64,000 nt of DNA from Trichosporon coremiiforme. Taxonomy: Eukaryota > Basidiomycota > Tremellomycetes > Trichosporonales > Trichosporonaceae. The position numbers were made by a program, and so were the translations under genes. The stretch lies in NCBI GenBank assembly GCA_039545355.1, contig BCJJ01000009.1:1-64000 (forward strand), in the 5' to 3' direction. A model generated the notes under the pieces. It was not told the DNA's origin. It did not search any database and saw nothing but the letters and a program-made list of their open reading frames with translations. Shown here piece after piece: positions 1-42,105 of this stretch (position 1 is the stretch's first letter; each line of letters begins with the position of its first letter).

Positions 1-29
1 CCCCTAACCCCCTAACCCCCTAACCCTAA
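1..29. repeat. Telomere repeat, chromosome end
   Basis: The window opens with four units of the C-rich telomere strand: CCCCTAA, CCCCCTAA, CCCCCTAA and CCCTAA. Read on the other strand this is TTAGGG(GG), the repeat type known from Cryptococcus and relatives. Unit lengths vary (6-8 nt), as is common in tremellomycetes. Only about 29 nt are present, so the assembly stops just inside the telomere. The innermost unit overlaps the last codon and stop of the adjacent oxygenase gene. Confidence 0.93.
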
Positions 30-9171: not shown

Positions 9172-9348
9172 GTTGACGAAGTCCAGAGGACGAACGCGAT
9201 GACGCATAAGAGTGCCCGATCCACGTCTCCCACGGTGGCCAAGCGTCGGCCATCTGCGGCGACTATCGTGTGGACGATCTCTCACAACTTGCATACACGG
9301 AACAGTCAGAATACAGGATGGATAAGCAAGCCCAGGCCATAGCAAAGT

Positions 9349-10292: not shown

Positions 10293-11375
10293 GCTGTGGT
10301 AAAGTGGAGAGGGGTGATGTCGAGTGTGATGCCAGATGTACCGGTTTCGGTGGTAACAAGGGTGTCATTGGATCTGAGTCCGTGCACGCCGAGCGTGGCC
10401 AGATCTGTGACGGCCACCACTGCGCTCAGTCCATAGAGTAGCACAGCTCGACCACCTAGAATGTGTCTGGGTGGAGGGATATGCGTTTATATCGTGGGAT
10501 GCGGGAAAGAAGTCGCGTCGTGCAGAGGTCGTGTCGAGTGGCCTACGAGTCATCTCCGCTGACACGCGTCCAGGAACCAAATACCCGCAAGACTCCATGA
10601 GGGGCTTCTTTGCTCCACTGATCGATCGTCAAACTCCACAACCTCATAGGAATGCATCTGCAAGCGAGCGATTCAACGGAATGCATGCGCAAGCGGACAG
10701 AACGCATACGCATAGCCGGAAGGAAGCCCCACTGTGGGCAGGCGATGCATACGATACTGCTGAGCGGGTTACGGACTTGAGCCTCGTGCCAAGGATGCGC
10801 CGGTGGCGTGCGGCGTCAGCCACCCAGGGAGCGCAGATCTGCCGACGAGCACGAATTGTCGTTCTTCTCCGACGGTTTGTTCCAGCGTCACCATCGTCTA
10901 CTCTTCGGGGGCAGCAACAAGCACGGCCGTGCAAGTGCAGCAAACTCAATATCGACAACGGCGACAAGCAGTAGTGGGGTTTTTCTTCGAAAAGGAACGC
11001 TGGAATCGGGCCGTTTCCGTCGGTATCTGCGGAGAAGAAGGGGGCCTTTCGTCACTTGATGCCTGAGGTTCCCAATTGTTCCCTCGGCTCGCCGAGAGAG
11101 TGTGACACTGACATCACGACCCACTCGCTTAAGATTTCTCCGCCAACGCCGCATCCTGGCTGCGTCTATGCGTCTGCGCACGCAACGGCTCGCTCCAGCA
11201 CGCTAGCCGGTCGCTGAACAAACTTTGCGACGGGTGGTGCCTTGATCCTCCACTGTGCCTCGCGCTGGCAGGGGTGAGCTCCGCGGGAAACTTCCAGTCG
11301 AGCTGGATATGGGATCATGTGGGTGCTGCGGTCGATCATGGGATCGGCCGATCACGAGTCCTCTGGCCTCCCTGC
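10293..11375. other. Intergenic
   Basis: About 1.08 kb between paralogues 2 and 3. Open frames are short and shadow each other on both strands; no motif, tRNA or tandem repeat was recognised. Confidence 0.55.
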
Positions 11376-12230
11376 TTAGGTGTCGACGACGAGGCGGTAC
11401 ATCTCGTCCCCGACCTTGGCGCGGAAGCACGCATGCGAGAGGAAGGTCATGCGCTCGGCATAGTCGACGTGCATATCGAAGACAATCTCGGACGCCCACG
11501 CAACCATGCGCTCCTCATGGACTGCCTGCCAGGTGGACTGGAATGCAAAGCCGCGTTTTCGACGCTCGAGACCCAGGAAAGCGATGGTCAGGCCTGGGTA
11601 GAGCTCGAGCTGGTCCTCGGCCCAGCGGACGACCTTGTTCAGTGTCGAAAAGACGACGGCGCGGTCGCGCGGCCCGAGGTCCAACCCGGCCGCGAAGAAG
11701 GGCGACAGGCTCAGTGTCAGGTGGACCTTGCCGCATGGCTCGATGTCGAAGAACTGGAGCGAGGCGGCGGCATGGGCGTCGAGCACGATCACATTGTGTG
11801 CCCCGGGCAGCATGAAGGGGCGATACTCGAGCGGAGCCGCGTAGCTCATCACCTTGATCAGCGCCTTCAGCGAGGACACGAACGGCACCGGCCGCTGCCC
11901 ATAGATGCGCAGATATCGCGGCCGACACCCGCGCAGGAAGGCCGCGCACGTCCCCCGGCCCAGCATCTCGTCGTCGTAGGGAAACACGTCGATCGTGCGC
12001 ACGTCGCGGTTGCCGCGCGCCCACTGCTGGGTCCACACCTGGTAGTACCGCGTGCAGGGGTGTGCGCCGCTCACGACCATGTGCGACGCAAGCTGCCCGT
12101 CGACGATCGTCTTGGCCGAACGCCCGGCCGCGCGCAGGGCCGACAGCGTCCCGATGTCGTCGGCCGCATGGACGTAGGCGACAATTTCGTCGAAGAGATG
12201 CGGGTAGAACTTGATGTCGAGTGTGGTCAT
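11376..12230 (-). CDS. F-box-like family protein, paralogue 3
   Basis: An intronless gene of 284 aa, the shortest intact member. It begins MTTLDIKFYPHLFDEIVAYV, aligning with the family N terminus, followed by TLSALRAAGRSAKTIVDGQL. The middle diverges (RYLRIYGQRPVPFVSSLKAL), then KVHLTLSLSPFF and AVVFSTLNKVVRW match the family's central strand/helix pattern. It ends CFRAKVGDEMYRLVVDT, the conserved C-terminal block. Function unknown beyond the F-box-like resemblance. Confidence 0.8.
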   Translation of the reverse strand: MTTLDIKFYPHLFDEIVAYVHAADDIGTLSALRAAGRSAKTIVDGQLASHMVVSGAHPCTRYYQVWTQQWARGNRDVRTIDVFPYDDEMLGRGTCAAFLRGCRPRYLRIYGQRPVPFVSSLKALIKVMSYAAPLEYRPFMLPGAHNVIVLDAHAAASLQFFDIEPCGKVHLTLSLSPFFAAGLDLGPRDRAVVFSTLNKVVRWAEDQLELYPGLTIAFLGLERRKRGFAFQSTWQAVHEERMVAWASEIVFDMHVDYAERMTFLSHACFRAKVGDEMYRLVVDT

Positions 12231-12944
12231 GAAGCAACGACAATGGGGATGAGTACGGATTCAGGATCGAAAATGGCGCAGATCCAGAGTAGTGGACGAA
12301 GGGCGAAAATGACCCGGTGTCGGAGGAGCATATGAGGAGAGTCAGCGTCGCTCGCTATGCAGCGAATGCGGGTGGGACAAAAGTTGCCGATGTCCGTGGT
12401 CCTCCCTCCCGTGCAAAGGAAATGCAAATATTCGGATGCAAAGCACTCCGACGACCGCTCATCGCCGCGTCGACTCCGTCGGCGTGGGCCGCCGGAAGCG
12501 AGTAGCAGTGCAGATCTGTTGATCACTGTCATCTGACGTTGCATGCGGGGTGATGAATTGCAGCCAACAGCGCCAACGTCCATTCATGGCATGCCATGCA
12601 TCCACATGCCCGCAAGCTCAGGTCCCTCAGGTCGCTCAGGCGAACTCAGGCAACTCAGGCGACTCAGGACGCTGCTCATAATATCCTCAGCGACCGCATC
12701 ATGCATTGCAGTGAAGATCAGACGATATCAGGCAGAACGCACCCTAGCTCAGGATAAACGATCAGCCAGGTGCAACCAGGCTGCTTGGCAGGCGGGACGT
12801 CCTCCGCAATCCTCTCTCATTCTACCCTCTGCCCTCTCTCCCACAATTGCTGCATGTTGCCTCCGAACTCGGCAGCGAACCGAAACTGAAACTGAACATG
12901 TGCAAAACGAGCTTCCCGGCAGATCTCTTCGGGGATCTATCTCC
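12231..12944. other. Intergenic with a 9-bp minisatellite
   Basis: About 0.7 kb upstream of paralogue 3 and downstream of paralogue 4. Apart from the CTCAGG minisatellite at 12617-12668, nothing was recognised. Confidence 0.55.
12617..12668. repeat. 9-bp minisatellite (CTCAGGnnn)
   Basis: CTCAGG recurs six times, starting at 12617, 12626, 12635, 12645, 12654 and 12663, with variable 3-4 bp spacers. Confidence 0.85.
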
Positions 12945-13967
12945 CTATTCGACAGTGTACAGCCGGAACGTTTCCTCGCCGACGCGATCTCGGTACGCAT
13001 CCTCAGATACAAACTCGGCCCGCTCCTGCAGGCTAGTGATCTCCTCGTCGTCTAGAGATGTGCACTTGCACTGCTGCGCGTAGTGCGGTGCACACGTCCA
13101 ACCCACGCGGGCGTAGTAGGAGAAGACGTAGGACCAGAGCGCCTGGACGGAGACCAGGGGTTCAGGAGGTGGATCTATGGGCCAGAGTTGGAACCAATGC
13201 GGGCTCCAGGTTTCAGCACCGACGAGCATCAGGCGAGCACCGGGATAGTGGCGGAGGTACGCTATTGCGCTGACTATAATCGAATTCAGCAACCCGCGCT
13301 TCTGGTCCGGGTTCTCCGCCGGGCTCTCCTTGACGCCAGCGGACTTGGGGGTGAGGAGGACGACTACCTCATGAGCAGGCGAGGTCGGGGCTGGAACAAA
13401 CTCGGGACACTCATCGCCGTCTCCCCAGAGCACCTCGAACAAGCCAATATTGCTGTCATGCCGGATGTTGATCACGTTCCTGACACCCGAGACGAGACGG
13501 ACCTTGATCCCCGAGCCGAAGAAGTATCCAGCTTCTGTGAAGTGGACGACAGTACTAGCACCGCAGGCATCGGAAGGGAAGCTCTTGCTATCGAACAGCC
13601 GAACCGTGTCAGCTCTGTTCGCTCTGAGGTAACGCGCAACGGCGTCTTCTGGTGCACAGGGGGAAAAGCCGTTCGCAAGGTCAAAATTGCATTGCGGGTG
13701 GTGGTCGAAGTGGTGCACGTCCACGGCCTGGACTTTGGAGCCGACACGCGGGCCATGTGGGCTCAGCCGGAGCCTTCCCCATCGCGTGTGAGCCTGAAGG
13801 TTCGACTTGCCCCTCACGACGATATGGGTTACGAGTTTGTGGTCGACAACATCGCGAACCTCAGAGGAGGCTTGTCGTAGAGTTAGAAGTGTGGGGACCG
13901 AGCGGGATCGGTACAGCTCGTCGACGATGTGGTCGAAGACGTGAGGGAAGTAAGCAATGTCGATCAT
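12945..13967 (-). CDS. F-box-like family protein, paralogue 4
   Basis: A single exon of 340 aa, started at the Met of MIDIAYFPHVFDHIVDELY to match the paralogues. The N terminus shows the F-box-like helix and TLLTLRQASSEVRDVVDHKL. Family landmarks follow: TVRLFDSKSFPSDACG, VRNVINIRHDSN, EVVVLLTPKSAGV, IAYLRHYPGARLMLVGAETW. The end is AYRDRVGEETFRLYTVE. It is the innermost gene of the first block of paralogues. Confidence 0.82.
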   Translation of the reverse strand: MIDIAYFPHVFDHIVDELYRSRSVPTLLTLRQASSEVRDVVDHKLVTHIVVRGKSNLQAHTRWGRLRLSPHGPRVGSKVQAVDVHHFDHHPQCNFDLANGFSPCAPEDAVARYLRANRADTVRLFDSKSFPSDACGASTVVHFTEAGYFFGSGIKVRLVSGVRNVINIRHDSNIGLFEVLWGDGDECPEFVPAPTSPAHEVVVLLTPKSAGVKESPAENPDQKRGLLNSIIVSAIAYLRHYPGARLMLVGAETWSPHWFQLWPIDPPPEPLVSVQALWSYVFSYYARVGWTCAPHYAQQCKCTSLDDEEITSLQERAEFVSEDAYRDRVGEETFRLYTVE

Positions 13968-14779
13968 CCCTGTCCCGTAGATGGAGGAGACGTGAGTTCT
14001 GGAAGTGGGAAGGGCGGGCCATGCTGCGTGCATTCTTATGAACATCACTATCGCGGATGATCGTGCAAATGTCTCGCATGACTCGATGACCCGTCGGGCA
14101 CGCCGGGACGTGGGCTAACACACGCTGGACCCGATATTGGTAGACGGAGAGTGAGGATTCAAGATGGAGATGGTGTGCATTGGTAATGGGGTAGGGGCGT
14201 GCGATTAGATTTGACGGCTTCGGAGCGCGATTGGTAATGACCGGTAGTCAGTGATAGCGGTGGCCTGCCTAAGCCCCGTTCAGCTCGATGGCTTGCTGGC
14301 TGCGCATATGTGATGGCACGTGAGCCCCTATCGTAATCGGCCAATCGCTGACAGCTGAACCCGTTGGCGAAGGCGGCGGTGGGCGCTGTGGAAGAAGGGA
14401 TTGTGCGATCTCGAATTCATCAACACACACTCAGCAGATCGCATTCTACAGTATCTTATCACGGCTTACGTACACCGACTGACCGAGTCCCACTCCTCTG
14501 GAATGCTTCTCTTCTAGCATTCACACTGTGCTCACTGATCAACGCACTTCCGTGCAGAAGATGGCCCGTGTGCATTGGATGCGTGAGAGTGCGCAGCATG
14601 GCGCCATGTCATGACTAGCGCGATCTCGCCTTGCTCGGCTGTCACGCCCGTCCACCCGGCATCAGCTGATAGTGTGACACCCCAGGGGAACCATCCCACA
14701 GGAACCCAGCAAACACTCGGCATTGCTGAGAGATCTCTCATCATGCATCATCCGCATCACCCACGTCCGCGACGCCAAC
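13968..14779. other. Divergent intergenic region
   Basis: About 0.8 kb between the divergently oriented paralogue 4 and the twin Cys-motif gene. No further gene or repeat was recognised. Confidence 0.55.
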
Positions 14780-22729: not shown

Positions 22730-23775
22730 CTACTCTGAGAGCATGATCTGGAACATACGGGATCCGACTTGAGCCTCGTACTCCGCCATTGTCAGGAACT
22801 TGATTCGGGCGAGACAGGACTTGAGGTCAACCGCCGGTATCCGGTGGAGGTACCCGGCCAAGAGTAATTTACGTTCAACTTGACACAACACTGCGTCGGC
22901 CTTCTAATTCTCAATTTCCCGAGGACATGTTCCATGTCGCTGTTGGTCTGAGCAGCAAACCAGTCCCACTGCCAGTGTTCGGCAAGTATGACGACTTTCA
23001 AAGCGGGGTTGTGGTGCAAAGCGCAAGCAACCGAAACCGACCAATTTCGGAGAGAGCCCTCGTGCCACGCGTCAACACCACTGCTCACCGGTGTAAACAT
23101 GAGGACCAGCTCCTGGGACTTGTGGACGGTGTTGATACCCAAGAATTCGGGGTGGCTTAGGGGGTCGTCGAGGTACGAGAAAGCGAAATCGGGAGGACAG
23201 AGCGCACAAGCGTCATAGCGCATGTTGATGACCACGCGTTCTGCATCGGAACAGAGCTCGACTTCTCTCTTGTTGTGGATTCCCATTTCCGGAAACGCCG
23301 CTGGCAACTGCGCGGAGAAGTACGCTGGGGACGGGAAGACGATGAAGGTCTCTGCGCCGCATGGGGAAGGGTACGACCTGTACTCGAAGATACGCAGGAC
23401 AGGCATTCTCGCGACAACATCGTCTTGCATTGGCAGGGTCTCTTCGTCCAGGACGGCAACGTGATCGGAAGCATTGTCCGGAAGGCGCACGTCATACACC
23501 GCCTGTATGGTGTCCTTGCGCCATCCCTCCGTGCTGCTGCTCCAGAGTAGCGTTTCGTGGTCGAGCCGAACGGTAGTCACGAGTTGAGGAGACCGAGTTG
23601 ACTTGGGCACGAGAACCTTTTGGCGAGGAAGGCGACTGTCGATGGTGGCCTTGACGAATGTGCTGGTGAGGCGACACTGAGCCAGGGTGTGGTAGTCGCC
23701 GCCCAGTTGGAGTTGGCAGAGAACCTGCTCCAGGATGTGCGGATACGCCCCGGCATCGAGGCATGAGATACCCAT
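22730..23775 (-). pseudogene. F-box-like paralogue 6, frame broken near the 3' end
   Basis: From the Met at 23775 (MGISCLDAGAYPHILEQVL) the frame is intact for most of the protein: CRLTSTFVKATIDSRL, VLRIFEYRSYPSPCGAE, RVVINMRYDA, ELVLMFTPVSSGVD, LAEHWQWDWF. It then drifts into unrelated residues and stops at 22792. The conserved end (ARIKFLTMAEYEAQVGSRM) is present in another frame down to a TAG at 22730-22732. The break lies roughly between 22830 and 22940. This may be a recent frameshift, a sequencing error or, less likely, a missed intron; the 327-aa truncated form could still be made. Confidence 0.7.
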
Positions 23776-23930
23776 GGCGACGCTGAGCTTGATTTGAGTG
23801 TGGATGAGGAAGGAACTTGTGAGATGATTCAGCTGCATGTTGCAAGCGTCCGTCTCGCAGAGAATGCACCCGCGATCGGTGCTACCCTGCGCCCTCCTTC
23901 CGGCAGCCTGTCAGGCCCTCCATTCCCTTA

Positions 23931-24914
23931 TCATGTTCGCTGGGGATGCATGAGATGAAGCATTCGTGAGCCAACTTGGGCCTCGTACTCCGCCGTTGTC
24001 AAGAACCTGATACGAGCGAAACAATGCTCAGGATCAGTCTCCGGCGCTTGGTCGAGGTAAACCAGAATGAGCCTCTTGAACGCAGCCACAAGGCGCTCGT
24101 GCTCGTCCTCGATCCCACTCAACTCCTCCTCTTCAGGTCGGGCAAACCAAGTCCAGTTCCACCCATCAACAAGCAGCACCACGCTTAGCGCCAAGTTGTG
24201 CCGGACGGCGAGAGCGACAGAGTGGGTCCAGTTCTCGAGCAACTGCCTCTCCGCTCCCGCCTCCTCCGTCAACTCCAGCCGTGTCGGCGTGAACAACAGT
24301 ACCAACTCCTGCCGCTTCTCCAACACGCCTATGCGGCGGTACATTGAGTTGCGCAGTTCCGCCTCTGGTGCATATCGGAATGCAAAATCTAACGGAGTCT
24401 CGGCGTAGCGCATGTTGATCACGAAGCGGCTGGCTTGGTGACACAGTTCAACGCAGCGGTTGTACTTCCCCTCTGGGGAGAAGTAGGTCGGCAAGGGGAA
24501 GAGGATGAGTGTCTCGGCCTTGCATGGAGGCGAGAGGGCGCGATAGTCGAAGATGCGCAGGATGGTGACTGCCTCTGACAGACGCGGCCAGTACAGGTCT
24601 CCTGTGACATGTAGGTCGGCTACGACGAAGGAGGTCGGTCGCCAGCCCTCCGTGTCGCTGTCCCAGAGGGGCGAGTCGCGCACGACGGTCAGAGCGGTTT
24701 GGCGGGGAGGAGGTACCGGGTCCACCGGCACGAGTGTTCTGTGCCGGGGCAGGCGGGAATCGATCCTGCGCTTCAGCGCAGAACAAGTGAGGCGGCAGGC
24801 GGCTAGAGTTCCAAACTGCCCCGAAAGGTGGAGGTGGTGCAGCACACTGTCAATGATGTGCGGAAAGGCGGCAGCGTCGATGCTGGCCCCCCCCGCAGCG
24901 TCGATGCTGGCCAT
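23931..24914 (-). CDS. F-box-like family protein, paralogue 7
   Basis: An intact single-exon gene of 327 aa and a good family type. It starts MASIDAAGGASIDAAAFPH, where an 18-bp direct repeat has duplicated the first codons. Then come the F-box-like region (TLAACRLTCSALKRRIDSRL), the TEGW block, LRIFDYRALSPPCKAETLI, RFVINMRYAET, KRQELVLLFTPTRLEL, LSVVLLVDGWNWTWF and the C-terminal RIRFLTTAEYEAQVGSRM. Function unknown; an SCF adaptor role is inferred only from the N terminus. Confidence 0.85.
   Translation of the reverse strand: MASIDAAGGASIDAAAFPHIIDSVLHHLHLSGQFGTLAACRLTCSALKRRIDSRLPRHRTLVPVDPVPPPRQTALTVVRDSPLWDSDTEGWRPTSFVVADLHVTGDLYWPRLSEAVTILRIFDYRALSPPCKAETLILFPLPTYFSPEGKYNRCVELCHQASRFVINMRYAETPLDFAFRYAPEAELRNSMYRRIGVLEKRQELVLLFTPTRLELTEEAGAERQLLENWTHSVALAVRHNLALSVVLLVDGWNWTWFARPEEEELSGIEDEHERLVAAFKRLILVYLDQAPETDPEHCFARIRFLTTAEYEAQVGSRMLHLMHPQRT
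24871..24912. repeat. 18-bp direct repeat duplicating a start codon region
   Basis: GCAGCGTCGATGCTGGCC occurs at 24871-24888 and again at 24895-24912, separated by six C-rich bases. On the coding strand it duplicates the ASIDAA codons of paralogue 7. Confidence 0.9.
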
Positions 24915-25123
24915 CACTGGCGAGGTGTAGTGCAGAATGAGAATGCAAATTGCATGCAGCATTGTTGGACAAAAGATATCATCGACGCATTGTCGTGCCG
25001 CTATGGAGACAACTCGCCAATGACCGACTCCTCAGTCCGCTCGGTGCCTCCGCATACCGCCCCCGCGCCTGCGCCACCAGCACCGCATCGTTGACCGTCG
25101 GTCTACTCCCCCACTCCGCAGAT

Positions 25124-26086
25124 CTACCCCGCGTCAACGAGTGCAGACATGCGCATCCCAGCACGCGTCTCGTACTCTTCCATGCTCATGAGCTCAACGC
25201 GCCCGTGGAACAACTCGGCTGGCCAGCCCTCGTCTTCGTCTGCCTCGACTATGGCGCCGATGAAGTGGTAATGCCATGCCTGCTCCAGTCTCTCCCGCTC
25301 CTCTACTACGTCTTGGAGCCAGGACCATTCCTCCACCTCCTTCTCTGCTGTAAACCAGAGCCAGTCCCAGCCGTCGATGATCAGGGTGACGGTGAGGAGC
25401 GGGTTGGCGTACAGGGCTCCGACAACTGAGGCGGTCCACTTTCGTAGGCGGCCGGTCTCAAGGCTGGAGCTGCTCGAGGCGCGAGTAAACATGAGCACGA
25501 GCTCTTGCCTTTTATGCAAGGCTGGTTGGAGGGGATACGGAGATGACTTCAGGTTGTATGCGAAGCGGAAGTCTGGCGGTTGTTTCGACCCCGGGTCACT
25601 ATTGAAGCGCATGTTGATGATTGTCCGGTTGGAGTCGGGGGGAAGGCGGACGCAACTGTCCTTATGATCGGGCTCTAAGAAATGGAGGGCTGAGGGGAAG
25701 ATGATGACCATGTCCGCTGGGACTGGAGGTAGTTGGTCTTGACAGTCAAAGGTGCGTAACACGGGAACTCTCCGGTGTTGCGTCCACTGCTGTTGGGAAG
25801 CCGAGTCCAAGAGCTGAGGGTGGACGTCGATGAGGTTCTCGATGAGCGGCCGGCGCCAGTCTTCGGTCAGAGCGGCCCAGAACCGTGTGTCTGCCGTCAC
25901 ACTGAGGGTACCGTCGGTGCATTTCTGGAGGATCAAGCGGTGTGGGAGACAGGCGTCAATGACCTGCCGCATGGCGGAGGAGGTTTGGCGAAAGTTCGCC
26001 AGAGTCCTGTGTTGGCCGTCCTGATGCAGGGTGTGCAAGACATCGTCGAGGATGTGAGGGTACGCCAAAGCGTCGATGGTGGTCAT
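25124..26086 (-). CDS. F-box-like family protein, paralogue 8
   Basis: An intact gene of 320 aa from the Met of MTTIDALAYPHILDDVLHTL. Landmarks in order: TLANFRQTSSAMRQVIDACL, VPVLRTFDCQDQLPPVPADM, RTIINMRFNSD, KRQELVLMFTRASSS, LTVTLIIDGWDWLWF, and the end MSMEEYETRAGMRMSALV. It is closest to paralogues 6, 7 and 9, all in the same block. Confidence 0.85.
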   Translation of the reverse strand: MTTIDALAYPHILDDVLHTLHQDGQHRTLANFRQTSSAMRQVIDACLPHRLILQKCTDGTLSVTADTRFWAALTEDWRRPLIENLIDVHPQLLDSASQQQWTQHRRVPVLRTFDCQDQLPPVPADMVIIFPSALHFLEPDHKDSCVRLPPDSNRTIINMRFNSDPGSKQPPDFRFAYNLKSSPYPLQPALHKRQELVLMFTRASSSSSLETGRLRKWTASVVGALYANPLLTVTLIIDGWDWLWFTAEKEVEEWSWLQDVVEERERLEQAWHYHFIGAIVEADEDEGWPAELFHGRVELMSMEEYETRAGMRMSALVDAG

Positions 26087-26317
26087 CACAGATCTCGGAG
26101 GAAAGTCCGTTGTGAGCAATGCAACGAGGAAATGCTCAGTCAAGTGTTATACATGGTCGAGAACGGTGGTTTTCAGTCGGATCTCAGAACGCGAAGCAGT
26201 GCGTGGTGGCGTTCTGCGGACCGAAAGTGCGGCAGCCATGTGCAGAGGCCATACCAAACACAGCGATGCAGTCGGATCCGGTCGTCAGTACTGTAACACC
26301 CTCTCCACAAAAGCCAT

Positions 26318-27353
26318 TCACTGCTGCTGCATGAGCTGGAACAAGCGCGGACCGACGTGATCTTCGTACTCAGCCGACGTCATGAACGTGGTACGGCCGA
26401 GAACTTTCTCCGTCAGTGTGATGCGGCTGTCTAGGGTTCTGTTCCAATAGACCTTCCAGGCGAGAGCCCACTGCTCGGCCTCTTCCAAACTCAGATTCTG
26501 GGTATACTCTGAGTCCTCCTTCGCAACAAACCATCCCCAGTCTCAGTGCTCGGCAAGGACGGTGACTCGCAAGGCTGGGTTGACGTACACAGCAAGCTGC
26601 ATCGAGGTTACCCACTGCGGTATGCCGCCATGGCTTCCGACCATGATGCCCTCAGGTGTGGTGGGGAGCACAACCACGACTTTCTGACACAGCTGCGTGC
26701 TAAGGGATTGAGGCTCGGTGAACCATGGCGGCAAGATGGGCAACAGCTCGTAGCAGAAGAAACAATCGCTCGGCTGCTCGCTTCGGAGGCGCTGGGAGTT
26801 GTACGGCGAGTGGATGACGATGCGTTGCGCGTTTTGCGGGAGGTTGATAACGCTGCCACTGCCGAATGCAGGGTGCGAGGCGGTCGTTGGGAATATGATG
26901 ATCGTGTCGGTGGGACAGGGAGGAAGTGGACGCTTGCAGTCAAAGTGGAGCAGCCGCAAGACTGGAACCTTCCCTGACACCCACCACGGCGTTAGGAAGG
27001 GGAGTAACAGCTTGGCATGAGCCCTGTAGGGATGCACGTCGATGACCCGAGGAATTGGACTGCGAGCCCAGCCCTCGGTGCACGTTTTCCACAGACGGGT
27101 CTGCTTGGGCCTGCTCACGTACAGCGGCCGCCGCGGTTGGCCCCAGGGCGGGTCTTGCGAGAAGCACTCAGCAAAGCTGTCATCTTGAAGGATGACGGTA
27201 TGTTTGGGGAGACGCTGATCGATGACTCTCTTAATGGCTGAGCAGGTGGCGCGACATCGAGCAAGCATCTGATGTTGACCATCGAGGTGGAGCTGGTGTA
27301 GGACGTCGTTGAGGATGTGGGGGAAGACGATGGAGGATGTCGAGGGTGGTCAT
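26318..27353 (-). pseudogene. F-box-like paralogue 9, frameshift and nonsense codon
   Basis: The start is at 27353 (MTTLDI), but a one-base shift follows at once, and the family sequence (VFPHILNDVLHQLHLDG, ARCRATCSAIKRVIDQRL) continues in another frame. That frame holds most of the protein (CTEGW, VPVLRLLHFDCKRPLPPCP, RIVIHSPYNS) as far as LRVTVLAEH. There a TGA stands where paralogues have a Trp codon. The same frame continues afterwards (DWGWFVAKEDSEY, TSAEYEDHVGPRLFQLM) to a stop at 26318. Two independent lesions make this a young pseudogene. Confidence 0.85.
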
Positions 27354-31842: not shown

Positions 31843-33033
31843 ATGGCCATCGACCAGTACCTCCAGAAGAACCCCGACGACGTCGTCGTTACCTGCGCCC
31901 TCCGCACCCCCCTCTGCAAGGCCCGTAAGGGCGCCTTCAAGGACGCAACCTACGACGAGCTCCTCCTCGCGACCTTTGAGGCGGCCAAGGAGAACATTGG
32001 CGTCAAGCCCGAGCAGATCGACGACATCTGCGTCGGCACCGTTACCACTCCCAACGGCCCCAACACGGCGCGTGTCGCCGCGCTCAAGGCCGGATTCCCC
32101 AACACCGTCCCGATCCAGGTCATCAACCGTTTCTGCTCCTCTGGTCTTATGGCGTGTTCGGTGATCGCGAACCAGATCCGCAACAAGGAGATTGACATCG
32201 GCCTCGCCGTCGGATACGACAACCTCACCTTCGCGGGCGGCAAGAGCTTCGACTTCTCCCCCGAGATCATGTCCAACCAGGAGTGCGTGGACTGCACCAA
32301 GCCCATGGGCTGGACGGCCGAGAACGTCGCGGGCGACTTCAACATCTCCCGCGAGCAGATGGACGCCTGGGCCGCCAAGTCGCACCAGGCCGCCGCCAAG
32401 GCCGACGCTGAGGGTATCTTCAAGGACGAGATTGCGCCCGTCCGCGTCCCTCGCGTCGTGGACGGTGAGCGCAAGACGGTCATTGTCGACCGCGACGACG
32501 GCATCCGCCAGGGCACGACCAAGGAGTCGCTCGCCAAGGTCCGCCCCGCGTTCCCGCAGTGGAAGCCCGGACAGACGACGGGCGGCAACGCGTCGCAGAT
32601 CACGGACGGCGGCGCGTTCGTCCTCATGATGACGCGCGCCAAGGCCGAGGAACTCGGCCTCCCCATCCTCCTGAAGCACGTCGCTACTGTTCAGTCCGGC
32701 CTCGCGCCCAGGATCATGGGCATCGGACCCTCCATCGCCATCCCCCTCCTTTGCAAGCGCCTGGGTATCCAGCAGTCCGACATTGACATGTTCGAGATCA
32801 ACGAGGCCTTCGCTTCCATGATGGTGTACTGTGTCCAGAAGCTCAACCTGCCCTGGGACAAGGTCAACGTGAACGGAGGCGCGATCGCCCTCGGCCACCC
32901 CTTCGGATGCACGGGTGCGCGCCAGGTTGCGACGGGATACAATGCGCTCAAGCGCGCCGGCGGCAAGACGCTCGTCACGTCCATGTGCATCGGAAGCGGA
33001 ATGGGCGCCGCGGCGCTCTGGATCCGCGAGTAG
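31843..33033 (+). CDS. 3-ketoacyl-CoA thiolase / acetyl-CoA C-acyltransferase
   Basis: A 396-aa intronless gene, typical thiolase length. The nucleophile is C98 in NRFCSSGL. The conserved NEAFAS, the catalytic His in GGAIALGHPFGCTGARQ and the second catalytic Cys in CIGSGMGAA are all present. It cleaves 3-ketoacyl-CoA to acetyl-CoA and a shortened acyl-CoA in beta-oxidation. No clear peroxisomal signal is seen: there is no evident PTS2 nonapeptide in the first 30 residues, and the C terminus is IRE, not SKL. Localisation therefore stays open. The frame is open further upstream, but the ATG at 31843 fits the family N terminus. Confidence 0.94.
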   Translation: MAIDQYLQKNPDDVVVTCALRTPLCKARKGAFKDATYDELLLATFEAAKENIGVKPEQIDDICVGTVTTPNGPNTARVAALKAGFPNTVPIQVINRFCSSGLMACSVIANQIRNKEIDIGLAVGYDNLTFAGGKSFDFSPEIMSNQECVDCTKPMGWTAENVAGDFNISREQMDAWAAKSHQAAAKADAEGIFKDEIAPVRVPRVVDGERKTVIVDRDDGIRQGTTKESLAKVRPAFPQWKPGQTTGGNASQITDGGAFVLMMTRAKAEELGLPILLKHVATVQSGLAPRIMGIGPSIAIPLLCKRLGIQQSDIDMFEINEAFASMMVYCVQKLNLPWDKVNVNGGAIALGHPFGCTGARQVATGYNALKRAGGKTLVTSMCIGSGMGAAALWIRE

Positions 33034-33529
33034 AAGTAAAAGTGTAGGGTGTAGGGTCATGCATTGTAATAGCAGTTTCATCCATCTGAGCAAGGAGCGG
33101 AGCGAGTTGCGAGTTAGTTGAGAGCCAGCGAGCATAAGGAGCAAGCGGGGCTGAGAGTTGAGTGTGGGACGTGGGACGTGGAGACGGTGGGCAAGGAATC
33201 ATGGATTTCGGCGTTGACCTCGGCCGAACACTCGACACTGCTCGGCAACCAGTGCCTGTGTGCCTAGGTCTGGATGGTCTGGATGGTGGCCGATCTCGGC
33301 GTTTCAGACTGCGATCAGCAGCTTCTTCCTGACATTGTTGCAACGCAAAGCCCAAGGCGGGGGTGAGGGAGGGGAGGGGCGCAAGCCTATGCACGAAGTG
33401 GAGGACAAAGTGTCCGCGTCAACATCCGCGTCAACATCCGCGCCAGCTTCAGCACTGCCAGTGTCTCGCGACGTCCAATCATCCAGCCTGCTGAGTGCTG
33501 GTGGGTTAGTGCGTTGGGTAAAGCGGATG
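33034..33529. other. Spacer before the intron-like array
   Basis: About 500 bp after the thiolase. It contains a short direct repeat (CGCGTCAACATC, near 33416-33441); no gene was recognised. Confidence 0.5.
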
Positions 33530-36500
33530 GTAAGCTCGTGGCGACTCTTGGAGCTGACACACAGATTGGATGGGACGAAAGCTATCACGTTTCTCTCATG
33601 AGCTGACAAGACAGATGGATGAGCTGCCAACGCCCGGGGCGAAGCTGACAACACAGAGCTTGGTGAGCTCAACGGCTGTCTTGCCAGTTGACGTCCAGTC
33701 CATCCGGCACAGGGGTCGGGCTAGAGGTGTCCCCCGAGCTGACAACTCGGGAACACAATGAGGAAATGAAGAGATGAAGAGATGAGACGTGAGACGTGAG
33801 ACGTGAGCTTCTTTCGCTGGGATGAGCTGACAATGACAGATGGGGTGAGCTACGTATCCTGTCGGGTTAGCTCATGTCCAGTCCATGCCGAGCGGAAAGT
33901 GTAAGCTGGGAGGAGTCTGGCAAGCTGACGCGCAGTGGTGAGCTCTCTTGTCATCGCCGTGAGCTTTCCCTTGACCGGACTGGAGGAGCTGACGAGACAG
34001 GCGGTGGTGAGGTATTTGTCCCACACATTAGCTGACGCCCAGTCCATACGGAGTGGCTATTGTAAACTTGGGTATGGCTCTAAGAGGCCGGCCGGCAGGT
34101 GTGAAGGGTGAGCTTCGTCTCGTTCGTTGTAGCTGACAGTCTAGGTGAGCTGCCGAATGTAGCCTCGAAGCTGACCCTGCAGGACTTGGTGAGCTACCCG
34201 ACCTGGAGAGGTTTAGCTCACGTCCAGTTCTGTGCAGAGCACAGAGTACTGTAAGCTTGAAAGGCTTTGAGGGAGATGAAGCGCAGATGTGAAAGGGCGA
34301 GCTACGGTATCGCCTTCGTAGCTGACAGTCCAGGTGAGCTAAGACGAAGACAGGCAGTGATGAGCTACCCGTCCATGAGACCTAGCTCACGCCCAGTCCA
34401 AAGGGACAGTATCGTAAGCTGGATGAATGTCGCGTAGCTAACGCGCAATCGAGAGCCCCTCTTCCCCTTAACGCAAGCTTCTTTGACCCGAAGAGCTGAC
34501 AAACGACAGAGAAGGTTTTTGTGAGCTACCAGATCCGCCGTGCTAGCTCATACCCAGTCCACGCTGCGAGGATAGTGAGCTGTTCGGGCCGTGAGAACGC
34601 TGATGCGCAGGCTGAGATAAGTGCCAGAAGCCCCAAGGAAGTGGTGAACTCTCTTTACTTTTATGAGCTAACGATAGAGTGTAGGTGAGCTAACGTGCGC
34701 AGCCACTCGAGCTCACACCCAGCCGTCGCTCAACCTTCTTTGCCCTCCCTGACGAAAGAGGTGAGCTGGCGATCGTAGTTGCGTGGGCTGACCCCAGACT
34801 CAGCTCAGCCTCCGGCGGGTGAGGTGGCGCCCTTTCCTTTGTCAGCTAACACCCAGCCGAAGTTGGTCTCAGGATACGAACTGAAGTAGGGGACGCACCA
34901 CAGTACACTGAGTGCTGGTGAGCTGTCTCTTGCCCGTCTAGGTGTCAAGCTCACGCCCAATTCTCACGTCTACGGCGTGGCGAGAGTTGGTGAGGTTAAA
35001 AACCGTGTAAGCTTTCGGTCTGTGTTTGGATAGCTGACGATCAGCGGGTCATGGGACTGGACACAGATGGAGGTGAGCTACCAGTCGATCTTTGTTGAAG
35101 CTCACCCACAGAGAGTCGATGGGGATAGGTGAGCTGGCGAATGTCCATCCCAAGCTGACCTCGAACTCGGGTGAGCTACACGCTGACTCAACCGAGCTGA
35201 TCCCAGACCTTGAGGGGTGGATGTAGACGTAGTGGAGGGTCGGCTTTCGTGACCGCACCCGGCGTAGCTGACTGTGCAGCTTTCTGCAAGAACGGTGGGA
35301 ACAGGTGAGCTGGCTAACATCCCTGGCTCGCTGACCCCAGTCTGCGCCAGACATGGGTGAGCTTCACGTTGTTGACCAGAGCTGATACCCAGCTTTGTAC
35401 TTCGCGAATCGCTGTGGAGGGACACAGCAACTTGTAAGCTCTAGTTGCTGGGTTTCGCGTCTCGTCTAGCTGACATGCTGCCGTGCTGTGGAGTAAGCTG
35501 GCCGTCTGTAAAGAGCTGACTGCAGACTCTCTCTAAGTTCATCCGCTTTGGACGCGGATATCTATGGCCGACGGCCAGTGAGTTACTGGAGTCGACACAG
35601 AGGACAGGTGAGCTGCCAGTTCTGTCGCGGTTGAAGCTCACGCAGGATCTACGATGGTACTGGGGATATGTGAGCTTTTCAACTTGACGAGAGCTGACCT
35701 CAGACTCTGGTTAGCTAGTGCTTTGTTGAGTGTAGCTAATCGACAGGTCTAGAGTGGGTCGTTAGACGTCGATGTACAGCCGCAGTGGACAGATGAGTTA
35801 CTTTCCGAGACTTCGACAACTCACGCATAGCTAATAGGGATGGCAATGGATGGGTAAAGTGTGAGAGCGCATTTAATTGGAGCTGACCGCCAGACTCGGG
35901 TGAGCTAGTCGCGAGTGCCGTAAAGCTGATCCCCAGTGGGTAATGTCAAGTCGACACAAGAGGGTGAGCTCTCGCCCTCCATTCTCATCAGGGTACAGCT
36001 CGCCCGCAGGTCTCCTTCTGGGAGAAATGTTTGCTTGACCTTTCCCCTCAAAGCTGACTCCAGGCTCGCAGTAGGCTAACAGTACCGTTGCGTGTTAGCT
36101 AGTCCCCAGTGTGTTTGGGAAAGGGGCGCAGTGACTAGTGAGTTTTAGGGTTAATGTCTGCTGAAGCTCACGCGCAGTTCACTAGAAGGACAAGGGCGGG
36201 GTAAGCTATGCCTCGCACACAGATTGGGTTGATCTCAGGGTCGCGGAGCTGCCGGCCGGCTTGCACGGAGCTGATCCCTAGTATACCCTTCACACACGAG
36301 AGCGAGCTTCAAAGCGGAGGTTGCATGGCTGACATGCAGCCTTCGACGCGGGCCGTGTTGACAGGGGACGTAACGGGCATCAGCGAAGGAGCTGGCGACT
36401 GCATGGGCGTAAGCTGGGGTGTTGTGAAGAAACATCTAACACTCAGTCAGAGTGAGCGGTCAGAGTGCGAGATATGGCACATAGTGGATGGTGAGCTCTC

Positions 36501-38069
36501 TTATCTACAGTACCTCGGTCCAAGCTCACGCACAGACGTCGATGATGGGATTGGAAGCAGCGAGCTGGTCAGCGTGGTAAAGAACGGGTCCTAGCCTATA
36601 AGGGTCAGCTGGTGCGCTGTGAGTAGTTTAGCGACATGCAGCTTTCGGCATGGCCGCTGGGTATATGTGAGCTGCCCGGTATCCTGAACGAGCTGATCCC
36701 AGGATCGGCATAAGCTGACTCGTCGTCGAGCTTCGCTGGCATCTAGCCCGAGCAGTCTAGAGAGGCATGGGGCTTCTCAGCAGTGAGCTTGCGTGTTGGT
36801 GAGGAAGCTTCTTATATATACAGTATGGCTTCGAACTAGCTGACGACCAGACCCTAGTGGCCAATGGCGAAGGTGGCGCACACGAACGGTGAGCTGCCAT
36901 ACGCCGCCGGCTATAGCTACCCACAGCTTTCATCAATGGGGAGGTCAGCTGCGCCCCCTCCGTGGCTAGCTGATGGGCAGAGATGATGGGCGAGCTCTCC
37001 CTCATATCTCTTCAGGCTAACTGAAGAACAGCCCGTGAGCGAAGAGCGAGCTTCAGCCAAAGAAGAGGTAGACAGGGAGCTGCGTGTTTCCCCTTTTGTT
37101 GAAGCTCACGCGCAACCTTCAACGGACCTGCGAGCGGGTGAGGTCTCGTATGTCCCGAATTGAGGTGCAGAGCTGACCCGTGAGCTAGTTTGCACAGAAT
37201 TATCGAGCTGACGACCAGTTATGAGCTCGAGTTATCACGTCGACGAAGCAAGAAGTAGTGAGCTGAGTGGTCCTCGGCGATGAGCTGACCTACAGCCAGT
37301 CATTGTACAGCATGCTCACTTTGCATGAGCTGCGGGACATTACTCGATTGTAAGCTAGAAACCTCTTGCGAAGCTGATCCCCAGGCCAGGGTGTTGTGAA
37401 GAATGTAGGCGGTGGACAGCTGAGCTCTTATGCATGACTTAGTTGAAGCTCACTCTTAACCCTCGGCAATGACGTCGTGGTTAGATGAGTTGCGGAGCTT
37501 GGTGAGCTGGAACTCCGCTTGCCTCGAGCTCACGCGCAGTCTTCCATGGTACAGCTGCAAACATCGCCCACAGCTGATAAAGCACACAGTATTGCGCTTG
37601 GCGGGTCAAAGACATACAACGACAAGCACTGCTGTCGAGTGGAGACGTTGATATAGGCTTGTGAGCTGGGCTACTTGCCCATGAGCTCACCCACAGCCCT
37701 TCCACCTGGACAGAGCAGCAGGCGAGCCTTTCGACACCTGTGCTGAAGTGGCAGACAGGTTTGATGGGTGAGCTTTCTGTCTCTTGAGAGTAGCTGACGA
37801 CCAGTCCTGAAGCTGAGCTGTCTGAGCTGTCAAATTGACAAAGTGCTTGGAACAGTGAGCTGTTGTACGTTGCTAAGCATAGCTCACCCACAGACATGCA
37901 ACTGAAGGAGATAGGCGAGCTGCCGGACGATGTTAATGAGCTGACGTACAGGCTTTGTGGGCAAGCTGCCAAAAGGTTCGGTTCAGCTGTAACCAGACCG
38001 TAAGTGTGAGCTGACATATCTGCTGGCCACCCATCACATTGGCCCGGCGACGCGGAGCTGACAACCAAA
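33530..38069 (+). repeat. Degenerate array of intron-like modules (GTGAGCT...AGCTGAC...CAG)
   Basis: About 4.5 kb made of units with a donor-like GTGAGCT or GTAAGCT, roughly 20 nt of variable sequence, AGCTGAC or AGCTCAC, then 3-6 nt and CAG. Hand counts give about 34 GTGAGCT, 10 GTAAGCT, 28 AGCTGAC and 13 AGCTCAC; chance would give well under one of each. Module length is mostly 35-42 nt, the same as real introns in this window. The 'exons' between modules are 0-23 nt. In the first 1.2 kb, modules form a higher-order unit of about 170 bp, marked by CCAG-TCCA junctions ending at 33698, 33881, 34042, 34227 (TTCT there), 34396 and 34557. Order decays further along. No convincing ORF crosses the region, spliced or not. 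All signals point the same way (plus strand). Confidence 0.85.
33768..33807. repeat. Short GA-rich tandem repeats inside the array
   Basis: GAAATGAAGAGATGAAGAGATGA-like repeats pass into three or four copies of GACGTGA. They interrupt the early part of the intron-like array. Confidence 0.7.
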
Positions 38070-38339
38070 CTGTTCAAGGAGGCTCAGCCTGGTCGCCAAC
38101 CAGACCTCGTACTGCGCCACTCTCACGGCCGTCGCTGCAACCAACTGCCAAACATGTCGTAGGTCGGAATGTGCCCTGTTGAGGGCACTGTGGAACCGCG
38201 AAAGCACCGGACACTTCCCTACCTACACCTGGCATCAGCGTCGCCGATCTCGACAGCCACCCCTCACAACCTAACCGTCCTTCCGTCTTCTTATCCCTCA
38301 CAACAACAGCAAAAGAGGAATCTCTCTATCGAGAGGCTC

Positions 38340-38432
38340 CGACCCCGGCCCGACTCGAACGGACAACCTTCAGGAATCGTAAGATATCCCAGTCATTGGA
38401 ATCTGAAGCGCTACCAATTACGCCACGGAGTC
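38340..38432 (-). tRNA. tRNA-Trp (anticodon CCA), with 20-nt intron
   Basis: On the minus strand: acceptor stem GACTCCG/CGGGGTC, D arm GCGT-AATTGGTA-GCGC, anticodon loop TT-CCA-A, T arm GTCCG-TTCGAGT-CGGGC, discriminator G. The body resembles eukaryotic tRNA-Trp closely (TGGCGTAA, AGGTTG variable loop). The anticodon stem TCAGA/CCTGA has one A-C mismatch. Intron 38376-38395 follows A37. If the stem is shifted by one base it reads as Gly(TCC), but that needs a missing position 26, so Trp is preferred. Confidence 0.83.
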
Positions 38433-39792
38433 ACCGTGATGTGATCACGTGATGGGCAGTCGCTGCTTCGTCGTGAGTCGGGACCGGACAATCCGCACGT
38501 TTTTCTGTGAGGTCCCGCGGAACTGTCAAAGCCAGGAAGCAATGTAGCGGAAGTTCCGCCCTCCTCGACACGCTGTCTTCGCGAACGCTGACCCCGTACT
38601 CTAGATACGCACCCACCGCCTTCTTCTCCTGCCAAAGCCCTCACCCAGATCTGCCCGTAGGGTTCAGGCCCCTTCCAAGTGAGAACGCAACTGGCCCCGT
38701 TGTGTGCGGTTCGCAGACCTTCACATCCAAGATGCAACCATGCAACGGTGTCACTTGCTGAACAACGCCTCGGTGAATTAGGTTGCAGCGGGTTCCTGAA
38801 TCGGTCTGCGACACCAACTAGACCTCGCACCTACTTGTCTCCGCTGCCGAGCATTGACAGCGAGCACTGCTCTGCGCACAGTAGAGGAGTACGAGTGCAA
38901 GTGTAAAGGGCGGCTCATGCTGAACGATGGTGGTTCGTGAACAAGCGATCTGCAACGTCGCGTCCCGCCCACTGCCGACCCAGGGTCTGGGGACGAGATC
39001 GGACTATTTCAGGGAAGGCGGCAGCCGATCCTGCGAAAAATATCTCGTTCTGTGCGAGGCGCACGCGCCACTGACGCGTGCTGACGCCGCTGCGGGCGGA
39101 AGACGAGCACGGCCGGGGTCGGTGGCTGCTATAAGCCAGACATGAATCGTCCACGCACCCTTAAGCCCACTGTGACCAGGCCATCCGAGCCCACCATCGG
39201 CGTCTCGTGCCTGTCACCGTTTTGGGTTGTCCTCTGGCAACTCCGCTGCTGGCGACTGACCTTTTCGGTTCTGCACATGCCGCTCGGGGAGTGGTAATGC
39301 ATCTCGGCCGCTGCATGTGCGAGCAATGCTTGGCCACTCTGTTTCGAGTGGGAGGACTGCTCAGGGCGCCGGGCTGAGCCTTTGGTCACCCAAGCTGCAC
39401 GAAAGACCGGGAGAGGGACCGAAAATCGCAATATTACGTCGCGGCCAGGGCCATGATTTCAGAGAGAATTCTACTTGGGTACTTTGGCTGACTGTGGGCT
39501 TGGGACTTGGTGGGGGATCCTGGGCTACATCAAGGTTGCTCGGCGTTAAACCTGACACAAGGCGCCCGCGGCTGCGCACCAAGGGAGCCAACACTAGCTG
39601 CCCGCATATCTTAGTGTGCTTACCGGCGCGCAACGATGAGTCCAGCCCGCGGAGCCCGGCCCTGCGTGCAAGTCGCTGGGCATACCCCGCGCACAGGTGC
39701 TGCCGATCATTTTGCTGTTCTCCACACTCTCCCACACACTCCTCGGCACCTCTAACCATACACCTACGGCAGCGACCTCGCCCCCTCCGACC
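38433..39792. other. Intergenic
   Basis: About 1.36 kb between tRNA-Trp and the membrane-protein gene. An upstream exon of that gene may lie near its end (39635-39700). Otherwise open frames are short, without recognisable motifs. Confidence 0.5.
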
Positions 39793-42105
39793 ATGAGCTG
39801 GCTAGCTTGGAACCGCCCGACCGGCGCGCTTGCGGTTCCGACACCGGCGAAGCGCGACGAGGGGCAGCCCGCGAACGCAACGTACTGGATGGACATTTCT
39901 GCCGTGGACGGTTTCTGGGCATTTGTTGAGGCCAAGTACTTTGTCTACGAGAGCATGTCCTCGATGGACTACTCTGAGAAGAATCACACTGCATGGTCCT
40001 TCGTGCTGAACCGGAGTTACACCAACACAACTCTGCTCGACCTTCAGAAGGCGCAGCGCGGAGCAGACAGCGAGGTGAGTGTTAAGGACGTGCTCGGCTG
40101 ACCGCAGTATGCAAACGCTGTCTTCAGCTTCAACGCCAGCAAGATCGAACTGGAGTTCGGCGGCACAACTTTCAACGAGTCGTTCCGGATTTACCGACCG
40201 CGTGCGCAGTTCACGGATGTGATCGGAGGGTACACTGCAGAGTCGACCGTGACGGAGGAGTACGATGGCAAGCTCAAGATCAAACGCGACCTCGCCGACA
40301 CTCGGTGGTCGTGCAACCTGCTCTTCTACGCGCAAGGCGACTTTGCGTTCAAGGGCGGCCGGTTAGGCTTTGACGCCCCTGCTGGAACAACGTTCAAGGA
40401 GACGACCGTCCCCGCGATGATTGATGCCGAGCCGAATCCGGCCTTGAAGGCTTACGTGCTCGGAGAAGACCCGGAGGCGGACGCGCTGAAGGCTCTGGAG
40501 CAGCATCCGAATGACCCAGCTCCCCTTTCTCAGTGGTTCGACGACCGCGACGAGCTCCGCGCCTCGCATCTTCCCTTGACCGGGCCCAACGTGCGCGTGT
40601 ACGATGTTCCTGCGAATACAAGTTTGATCTCTGTCAAGGGCCCCCGATGGACACCGCACACGGTTGGCTCGAGATGTTACTTTGCACTCGACCCGCCCAT
40701 GCAGTTCATGGGAGATGTGTGGGCTATGCCATCGAATGGGTCCCGCCTTATCAACGTCACAGACGAGGCCGTTGCTTACGGAAGTGGCACGCCGGGCTCT
40801 GACTTCGACTGGACCGTCCTCAGCAGCAGCGTCGGCTTCGGGCGGCACCCGACGACTGGGATCGACAGTCCCGATGCCTTCCAACCCATTCTCCAATACA
40901 ACGCCGCCGGCACCTACATCACAGCCGGCGAGAGCCAGCACACGTGGGAGCCGGGACCGACCGTTCGAGACGTTCGCCTCTTCTTCTCGCGATTGGATCC
41001 GACGGTCAAGTACACCCTCACCATCGGAGCGCACAATAGCATCTGCGTCCTCAACAATTTGGAGGTGGTTCAACAGACCAATTCAGCGAACAGCAGCGGC
41101 TCGGGCGACTCTGGTCAACCCGACGGCGCGAGCAGTCGCGCTAGTGGGCTCTCCGGTGGTGCGATTGCAGGCATTGTTGTCGGATGCGTTGTTGGCGTGG
41201 CCCTTCTGCTGCTTCTCGCCTTCTGCTGCTGGCGGCGACGCAAGCCGACCTCCAAAGCTGAGGACTTTGAGATCGCGGATGTTTCGACGCATGCACTCGC
41301 GCAGATGGGCGCGCCGACTCCAATCATGCCTCAGAGAGACTTTCCGGACCGGCAGACGGTATCCCAATCTTCGGACGACAGCAGGTTCGCCACGACCTCC
41401 GGAGCAGGCACGAATATTGGCACGCTGGGGACGCTCGGCACAAACTCAACGTCATCGAACACGATGGGCCAAGATGCGTCCTTCCTTCCGACAATTGTGC
41501 GACACGAAGAAGACGCTGGGTCCCTGGAGGCGGAGCTACCAGAGGGCACGCGCGGTGGCGAGGTCGTGCTTCCGCCCGTGTACCGCGACGAGTGGGTCGA
41601 CAGACGTGGCGGACGCGGGCTGGGCATCAGCACCGACGTCTCGCGCTCCGATCCCTCGGCACTCACCGCGGAGGAGATCAAGTACCTCGGCCCCCCCACG
41701 CCAGGCGCAACGCTGTCGTCGCCCATCACGCCTGGCTCGACGTCTGCACACACCTTCGGACACTGGATGAACCAGCCTCTCTCCCCCGGCGCCCAAGTCA
41801 GCCCCATTAGCTCGCAGCCCCGCTCCCCACTGTCAACCACCACCCCGACCGGCAAGACGCCTCTGTTCCCGCTGCAGACCTTGCCGCAGGCGTTGTCGCA
41901 GCCGGGCTCGTCGCCCGATTCTCCAGCCACCACGTCTCCAACCTACTCTGCTGCAGCGACGTCGCCGATCTCGCCACTCGACTCGCAGCCGACTGGTTCA
42001 GTGCCAGAGACGAACCCACTCGTGACGCCGTTCCCCCCCGGCGTCCAGCCATCGGACAGCACCCCGACCACCCCGAACGGCTTCCCGAAGGACGTGAAGC
42101 ACTGA
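39793..42105 (+). CDS. Single-pass membrane protein with glycosylated ectodomain and S/T/P-rich tail
   Basis: Exons 39793-40074 and 40108-42105 with a 33-nt intron (GTGAGT ... CTGACCGCAG) give 759 aa from the first ATG. I do not recognise the family. The ectodomain of about 440 residues has many N-glycosylation sites (NAT, NHT, NRS, NTT). One membrane span follows (GAIAGIVVGCVVGVALLLLL) with a CCWRRRK stop-transfer. The cytosolic tail is long, disordered and Ser/Thr/Pro-rich. A signal-like stretch, LPIILLFSTLSHTLLG, lies in frame just upstream (from 39700) but without an ATG, so the true start is probably in an earlier exon. It could be a cell-wall sensor or adhesion-type protein; this is inference from topology only. 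Confidence 0.78.

Follow-up and report, generated by a model that had tools for sequence, protein, structure and literature searches.

The window analysed here, a stretch of 64,000 nucleotides, contains a tandem array of 54 intron-like modules that is best read as one member of a class of arrays of introns of about 35-39 nt, each array lying downstream of a gene of the same direction. To judge from the sequence patterns described below, we find it somewhat more probable than any mixture of the alternatives that these downstream arrays are non-coding rows of minimal spliceosomal introns, that tandem duplication enlarges them and that most of their units are spliced. Window position 1 is the start of contig C9 in a 42-Mb, partly duplicated genome of 134 contigs, and the first 26 bases of the window are telomere-like CCCCTAAC repeats.

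Units were called with a model combining donor, branch and acceptor (cut-off 10 bits, length prior centred on 37), and the module consensus in the array is GTRAGCT...AGCTGAC...CAG. In the array interval, the model recovered 54 non-overlapping units on the forward strand and 10 on the reverse strand, where some matches have to be reckoned with, since GTGAGCT reads AGCTCAC on the opposite strand. Twenty dinucleotide shuffles of positions 33501-38100 gave 0-5 units each (mean about 1), and the rest of the window (54.7 kb) 12 and 11 units on its two strands. The dozens of intron-like units pointing in one direction that had been proposed in the first-pass annotation are thus recovered in number and orientation, and so is their length, given there as 35-42 nt: the median is 37 nt (interquartile range 36-38), and pattern matching alone, without the length prior, still yields mostly units of 33-42 nt. 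Its array limits, 33530..38069, stand at the start and are shortened at the end, which falls at about 37951 at 10 bits. The intervening "exons", described as 0-23 nt long, correspond to part of the spacing: 27 of the 53 gaps between units are no longer than 25 nt (median 25), including two of zero length in which an acceptor is directly followed by a donor, but others exceed 100 nt and the largest reaches 199 nt. The strict pattern GTRAGCTN{14,24}AGCTSACNNNCAG has 992 matches in the genome and 0 for the reversed control; 12 of its matches lie in the array on the same strand, against 0.054 expected from the genome-wide rate. The donor is GT in 48 of the 54 units, the six others being GC (4), GA (1) and AT (1). 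Within the array, Tandem Repeats Finder reported a single short tract (33783-33807); a comparison of the array with the whole genome, by a search that skips very common words, matched only the array itself; and no known RNA family was found in the array by Rfam (E<=1, 33000-39700), whose only hit was the tRNA gene outside it. The features of the window and the genes upstream of the comparable arrays are collected in Table 1.

Table 1 Features of the window, and genes lying upstream of intron arrays in the genome
Feature	Location	Strand	Basis or remark
Thiolase gene, start approximate	31933..33033	+	ORF, Pfam, homeolog
Gap between thiolase stop and array	33034..33529	.	C10 alignment, 71%, to about 33425
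Tandem array, 54 intron-like modules	33530..37951	+	donor + branch + acceptor model, unit listing
Six diverged higher-order repeat units, 134-181 nt each	33838..34812	+	alignment; borders by eye
Downstream flank	38161..39800	.	C10 alignment resumes at about 38161, 71%
tRNA gene just past array	38340..38432	-	Rfam RF00005, 44 bits; ARAGORN
Next protein-coding region downstream	39660..42105	+	ORF; C10 synteny, 80%
Upstream gene, thiolase	C9/C10	same as array	script prediction, Pfam
Upstream gene, NIPA-like	C12	-, same as array	
Upstream gene, protein kinase	C12/C6	+ (C12), - (C6), same as array	
Upstream gene	C1:2037	same as array	script prediction, outside the Pfam test
Upstream gene	C14 (- array)	same as array	no Pfam hit
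Upstream gene, S-adenosylmethionine synthetase	C14	+, same as array	
Upstream gene	C1:2193	same as array	no Pfam hit
Upstream gene, chromate transporter	C5	same as array	
Upstream gene	C1:2263	same as array	no Pfam hit
Upstream piece, phosphodiesterase-like	C2:996	same as array	
Upstream piece, YVC1-like	C22	same as array	

The donor, branch and acceptor signals of the array units are the same as those of protein-verified introns in a DMC1/Rad51 gene, which is present in two homeologous copies (C2 and C4, 79% identical); the protein translated from the C2 copy after removal of 18 predicted introns contains a Rad51 domain (1.6e-111). Of the introns listed for the two copies, 7 of 17 and 12 of 21 have a GCT donor. 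Within coding introns as a whole, the array introns belong to a minority subclass: of 130 coding introns found without bait, 71 carry T and 40 carry C at donor position +6, and of 279 array introns 23 carry T and 227 carry C. The match to real introns that had been claimed for the modules accordingly holds for length and only partially for signals. With a flat length prior, coding introns with GCT donors have a median of 37 nt and those with GT at +5,+6 a median of 38.5 nt. The tandem arrangement is specific to the AGCT subclass and does not extend to the commoner GTRAGT class: genome-wide, there are 407 cases of an AGCT-type acceptor followed by a donor within 28 nt (9 in reversed controls) and 86 ACTRAC/GTRAGT neighbours (60 in controls).

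The conservation of individual positions was also considered. When one position at a time was left out of the scoring, T at +2 was retained in 84% of the window-array units and positions +4 to +7 in 92-96%, but this test is too noisy to decide on the GT, since coding introns scored in the same manner give 81% for T at +2. Across 304 units from nine arrays, no strongly conserved base was seen beyond +7 or before the branch heptamer, and conservation at the positions scored by the model is partly by construction. These patterns bear on the possibility that the array is a satellite at the DNA level, whose AGCT heptamers are protein-binding or recombination sites merely resembling splice signals. 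AGCT repeats are a feature of immunoglobulin switch regions, the donor and branch heptamers of the array are nearly reverse complements with a common palindrome AGCT, and the GT does not stand out as specially invariant in the noisy leave-one-out scoring. Nevertheless, introns with these very signals are used in DMC1, one orientation prevails in the array, and the G at exon position -1, the short fixed spacing from branch to acceptor and the absence of conservation beyond +7 or before the branch all look splice-like, which makes a DNA-level satellite very improbable.

Donor position +6 covaries with branch position 2 (C with G, T with A) in the 130 coding and the 279 array introns, to an extent reached by 0 of 500 shuffles in each set. 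A helix between donor and branch by way of their common self-complementary AGCT is a possibility suggested by this joint variation. In coding introns, +6 also covaries with branch position 5 (1 of 500 shuffles) and +7 with branch position 1 (2 of 500), the latter not as Watson-Crick pairs, so that the existence of two intron classes would explain the signal between +6 and branch position 2 equally well. The U1 snRNA, sought to see which donor it fits, was not found with Rfam (E<=1). The 10-mer GTGAGCTGAC was considered as a common source of donor and branch and rejected, as neither the positions following +7 nor those preceding the branch show an enrichment for it.

When the exons of the window array are joined, stop codons occur at the rate expected by chance: the three frames contain 24, 40 and 42, a total of 106, compared to 107 (sd 8.1) in shuffles, and stops are likewise at chance rate in the homeologous array on C10. 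The longest open run of the window array is 120 codons, close to the shuffle mean of 110 (reached by 93 of 300 shuffles), and 91 codons at a stricter cut-off (reached by 250 of 300). The longest CDS proposed by a gene finder measures 321 nt, below the shuffle mean of 426 (45 of 60 shuffles reach it), and the summed coding score, -75 against a shuffle mean of -116, falls far short of the values for the two copies of DMC1, +164 and +86. The statement of the first-pass annotation that the joined exons give no evident ORF is borne out by these stop counts and by the near absence of codon bias. The remains of an extremely split gene, which it had also envisaged, find no support in the sense of a protein gene, given the chance-rate stops in the window array and its homeolog and the existence of many such loci.

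A related possibility is that the intron calls did not resolve a rapidly evolving protein gene split into dozens of microexons. Microexon families such as the schistosome MEGs and the aphid bicycle genes have many very short exons and evolve fast, and the exons of the array are likewise very short, numerous and fast-evolving; coding exons of DMC1 itself go down to about 11 nt. Some scores also point in this direction: out of 60 shuffles in each case, 2 reach the total gene-finder score of the window array, 5 its summed coding score and 2 the longest CDS of the C1:2037 array. In the open-run and stop test, which covered nine arrays, those of C5 and C1:2037 have at one cut-off a long open run as rare as that of DMC1 (reached by 5 and 8 of 300 shuffles), although at the other cut-off 183 and 41 of 300 shuffles reach it. 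Yet, contrary to the microexon families, the window array has neither an open frame nor a marked codon bias; the best coding scores of C5 (3.5) and C1:2037 (3.1) compare with 155 and 61 for DMC1; four predicted proteins of other arrays have no Pfam domain at family cut-offs; and the exons of the repeat units in C5 and L065 do not vary in steps of three, as judged by eye. A microexon gene is therefore an improbable explanation. The coding reading is rejected for the window array on frames, codon scores and Pfam, and less strongly for C5 and C1:2037; we read the class as non-coding on this sequence evidence, with the least certainty for these two arrays.

The first-pass annotation had asked for a search of the genome for other arrays, and at least a dozen further clusters of adjacent units came to light among roughly 100 of the 407 and roughly 100 of the 113 places. 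They are located on C1 (several), C2, C5, C6, C12 (two), C14 (two), C22, C25 and C29, with intron-like units additionally in C10 and C17, and eight arrays measured in the same way have intron medians of 36-38 nt. The nearest upstream gene, predicted by script, is on the same strand as the array at all 11 readable independent loci (Table 1), which has a chance of 1 in 2048 if strand is a coin toss; outside this count are C17, which has an opposite-strand transposase-like ORF upstream, C25, which is ambiguous, and C29 and C1:2242, where no gene was reached. Pfam supports 7 of the 10 upstream proteins tested. The distance from the predicted stop to the first unit ranges from 130 to about 1525 nt across loci. 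In the window it is 496 nt, and the upstream gene is a thiolase (Thiolase_N 1.8e-59, Thiolase_C 2.3e-41) with a homeolog at C10:44096-45236 (91% identity); the tRNA gene on the other side of the array is also present in the C10 sequence. Two other arrangements were discarded for C12: at 443-446k the array does not form the 5' leader of the gene that follows, as the next gene found runs the opposite way, and the arrays do not point outward from a common centre, as they sit behind two separate genes.

The homeologous copies allow a view of how the arrays evolve. The C10 array has the same place and strand as the window array, with 16 units in 1.4 kb, and between flanks that align with those of C9 (Table 1) only stretches of 75 and 45 nt can be aligned inside the arrays. 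The kinase loci of C12 and C6 are 77.5% identical over 775 columns, of which the first 300 or so are coding; their alignment stops about 70 nt before the C12 array, and the arrays (44 units in C12, 29 in the part of the C6 array examined) are then unalignable, except for a 181-column match between the stretch before the C12 array and a place inside the C6 array. Between the arrays of C5 (29 units) and C17 (13), pieces 98-270 columns long can be aligned, with 62-72% identity. Place, direction and signals thus persist while much of the array content turns over.

A partial record of duplication is seen within the window array, where each of the six higher-order repeat units contains several intron modules. 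In the first intron of these units, signal columns are 91% identical (232 of 255 comparisons) and other columns 47% (140 of 296), and exon columns are 58% identical (108 of 186, five units), figures to be read with the repeat borders in mind, which were chosen by eye at donors, a choice that favours splice signals. Five units have a pairwise score of 0.393, a value attained by 6 of 367 controls; control pairs score 0.310 (sd 0.033). Head-to-tail repetition in the window array concerns this segment only, as a lag test gave no period over the full array; higher-order periods were obtained for C1:2037 (lag 4, z 3.7) and C5 (lag 3, z 2.8), some 160 lags having been examined in such tests. The suggestion of an introner-like element turned satellite thus retains its partial higher-order tandem repeat and loses the near-identical copies elsewhere that would go with it. 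The same data are relevant to the idea that the array is a fossil, once spliced as a transcript or gene and now decaying without function. The six non-GT donors, the apparent lack of special conservation of the GT in leave-one-out scoring and a donor downstream of DMC1 that C4 keeps intact and C2 has lost are in its favor. However, the signals keep 91% identity in the repeat although the intron interiors have drifted to 47%, and the C9 and C10 arrays both retain signals after diverging far beyond their flanks, so that a fossil seems unlikely.

Several steps may be proposed for non-coding arrays of spliced introns, the reading that we prefer. Transcription of the array region would run in the direction of the upstream gene, either as read-through or starting at a promoter within the intervening 0.13-1.5 kb; that the array belongs to the transcript of the upstream gene, rather than to a separate RNA, is nearly an even proposition, leaning slightly to the negative. 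Splicing would remove most modules and turn the 4.4-kb array into a short, changing RNA, and it is rather probable that most modules are really spliced. The array would grow and shrink by tandem duplication and loss of whole-intron segments, the duplication being visible in part, and such growth could be tolerated since a new copy would be nearly harmless as long as it is spliced out. Selection or turnover would retain the splice signals, while intron interiors and exons are seen to drift. The odds seem balanced as to whether the mature array RNA has essentially no selected function. On this reading the array would be above all a splice-erased satellite, and a regulatory use would come second. 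We tentatively propose, as a possibility somewhat less likely than not, "splice-erased satellites" as an undescribed class of loci, in which the AGCT intron subclass multiplies by tandem duplication downstream of genes into rows of dozens of introns with hardly any exon. Array content would escape selection because each copy is spliced out, and homeologous arrays would retain their position, orientation and splice signals, the remainder turning over faster than the flanks. Among the earlier suggestions, a putative intron-dense non-coding RNA offers the best fit, in view of the chance-rate stops, the constraint limited to signals and the same-strand downstream position.

Densely spliced transcripts might instead be a source of small RNAs by entering the RNAi pathway, a route for which the stalled spliceosomes of Cryptococcus are a precedent. 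This genome has RdRP and Piwi families, and the array content turns over fast. Yet the intron signals of the arrays are strong and stereotyped rather than poor, some of the RdRP and Piwi matches of a six-frame search contain stops, and no transposon link was seen at most loci; a small-RNA source would hence seem about as improbable as a microexon gene.

No description of tandem intron arrays was found in the literature searched, which left most subscription journals outside; this agrees with the first-pass annotation, which likewise knew of no described element of this kind. Introns without coding exons occur in snoRNA host genes and intron-containing lncRNAs, and the array is likewise made of introns without coding exons; contrary to snoRNA hosts, its introns are too short for a snoRNA and it contains no Rfam family. 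Fungal introner-like elements resemble the array in being stereotyped spliceosomal introns in large numbers, but near-identical copies are required of them (PMC4457414), whereas array units are not near-identical copies and lie side by side outside coding genes. The nearest process is intron gain by tandem duplication (PMC4974935), in which a duplicated segment with splice signals multiplies introns; it concerns single introns in coding genes there and dozens in non-coding tandem here. Recursive splicing with zero-length exons (PMC5126111, PMC2773006) shares the acceptor directly followed by a donor, in long animal introns there and in a row of 37-nt introns here. Hybrid Trichosporonales are named in PMC6730849, and RNA reads of hybrid Trichosporon species are given as DRA007586 in PMC6642101; the present genome may be such a hybrid, to judge from its size and its duplicated syntenic blocks.

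The multiplication of introns is an old open question that has mostly been studied in coding genes, where a bad gain is costly. If our reading is true, the arrays would be a place where intron gain by duplication runs almost freely, they could show how introns multiply once they are irrelevant to a protein, and homeologous arrays would allow intron gain to be compared inside one genome. The array also asks how the spliceosome handles dozens of 37-nt introns with exons often of 0-25 nt, a size that leaves hardly any room for exon definition or for the usual exon-junction deposition, and raises the question of whether such arrays can be spliced thanks to a helix that joins the 5' splice site to the branch.

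In DMC1, intron-like units go on past the stop codon and resemble copies of the last short exons of the gene; these downstream units, which give no lag-2 signal in the C2 copy, have one in the C4 copy (z 3.0).

The coding introns of the genome fall into two classes. An AGCTNAY branch is found in 54 of the 59 coding introns with GCT donors, the GTRAGCT-type subclass used by the arrays, and in 20 of the 76 whose donors have GT at +5,+6 (both counts include the baits). Among the unbaited coding introns, branch position 2 covaries with donor +6.

Short exon-intron pairs also run on beyond the stop codon in the two DMC1 homeologs (C2 and C4 copies) and resemble duplicates of the gene's final coding exons. 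One donor past the stop is kept in C4 and lost in C2. In the six-frame search of the genome assembly, stops were found inside some RdRP and Piwi matches on contigs C11, C32 and C17, which possibly correspond to introns or pseudogenes.

The place upstream of the array is taken by a chromate transporter in contig C5 and by a transposase-like ORF, named by eye, in C17. In the window, the contig starts with the telomere-like repeat CCCCTAAC, which puts the array ~33 kb away from what is probably the end of a chromosome. Close to this end, eight ORFs of ~270-395 aa share, by eye, the motifs FPHI...L...S and look like a single paralogous family. At 59.5-64 kb of the window GC reaches 0.71, the AT skew is strong, and several frames hold long open ORFs rich in Val, Ala and Thr; this stretch is a low-complexity coding region with more than one candidate frame.

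Positions of the features described above
Feature	Sequence	Positions	Strand or orientation
Telomere-like repeat	window	1-26	
Eight ORFs	window	8161-14114 and 22792-27349	-
Transposase-like ORF	C17 locus (L067)	579-1446 (reverse-complement numbering)	opposite to C17 array
Low-complexity coding region	window	59.5-64 kb
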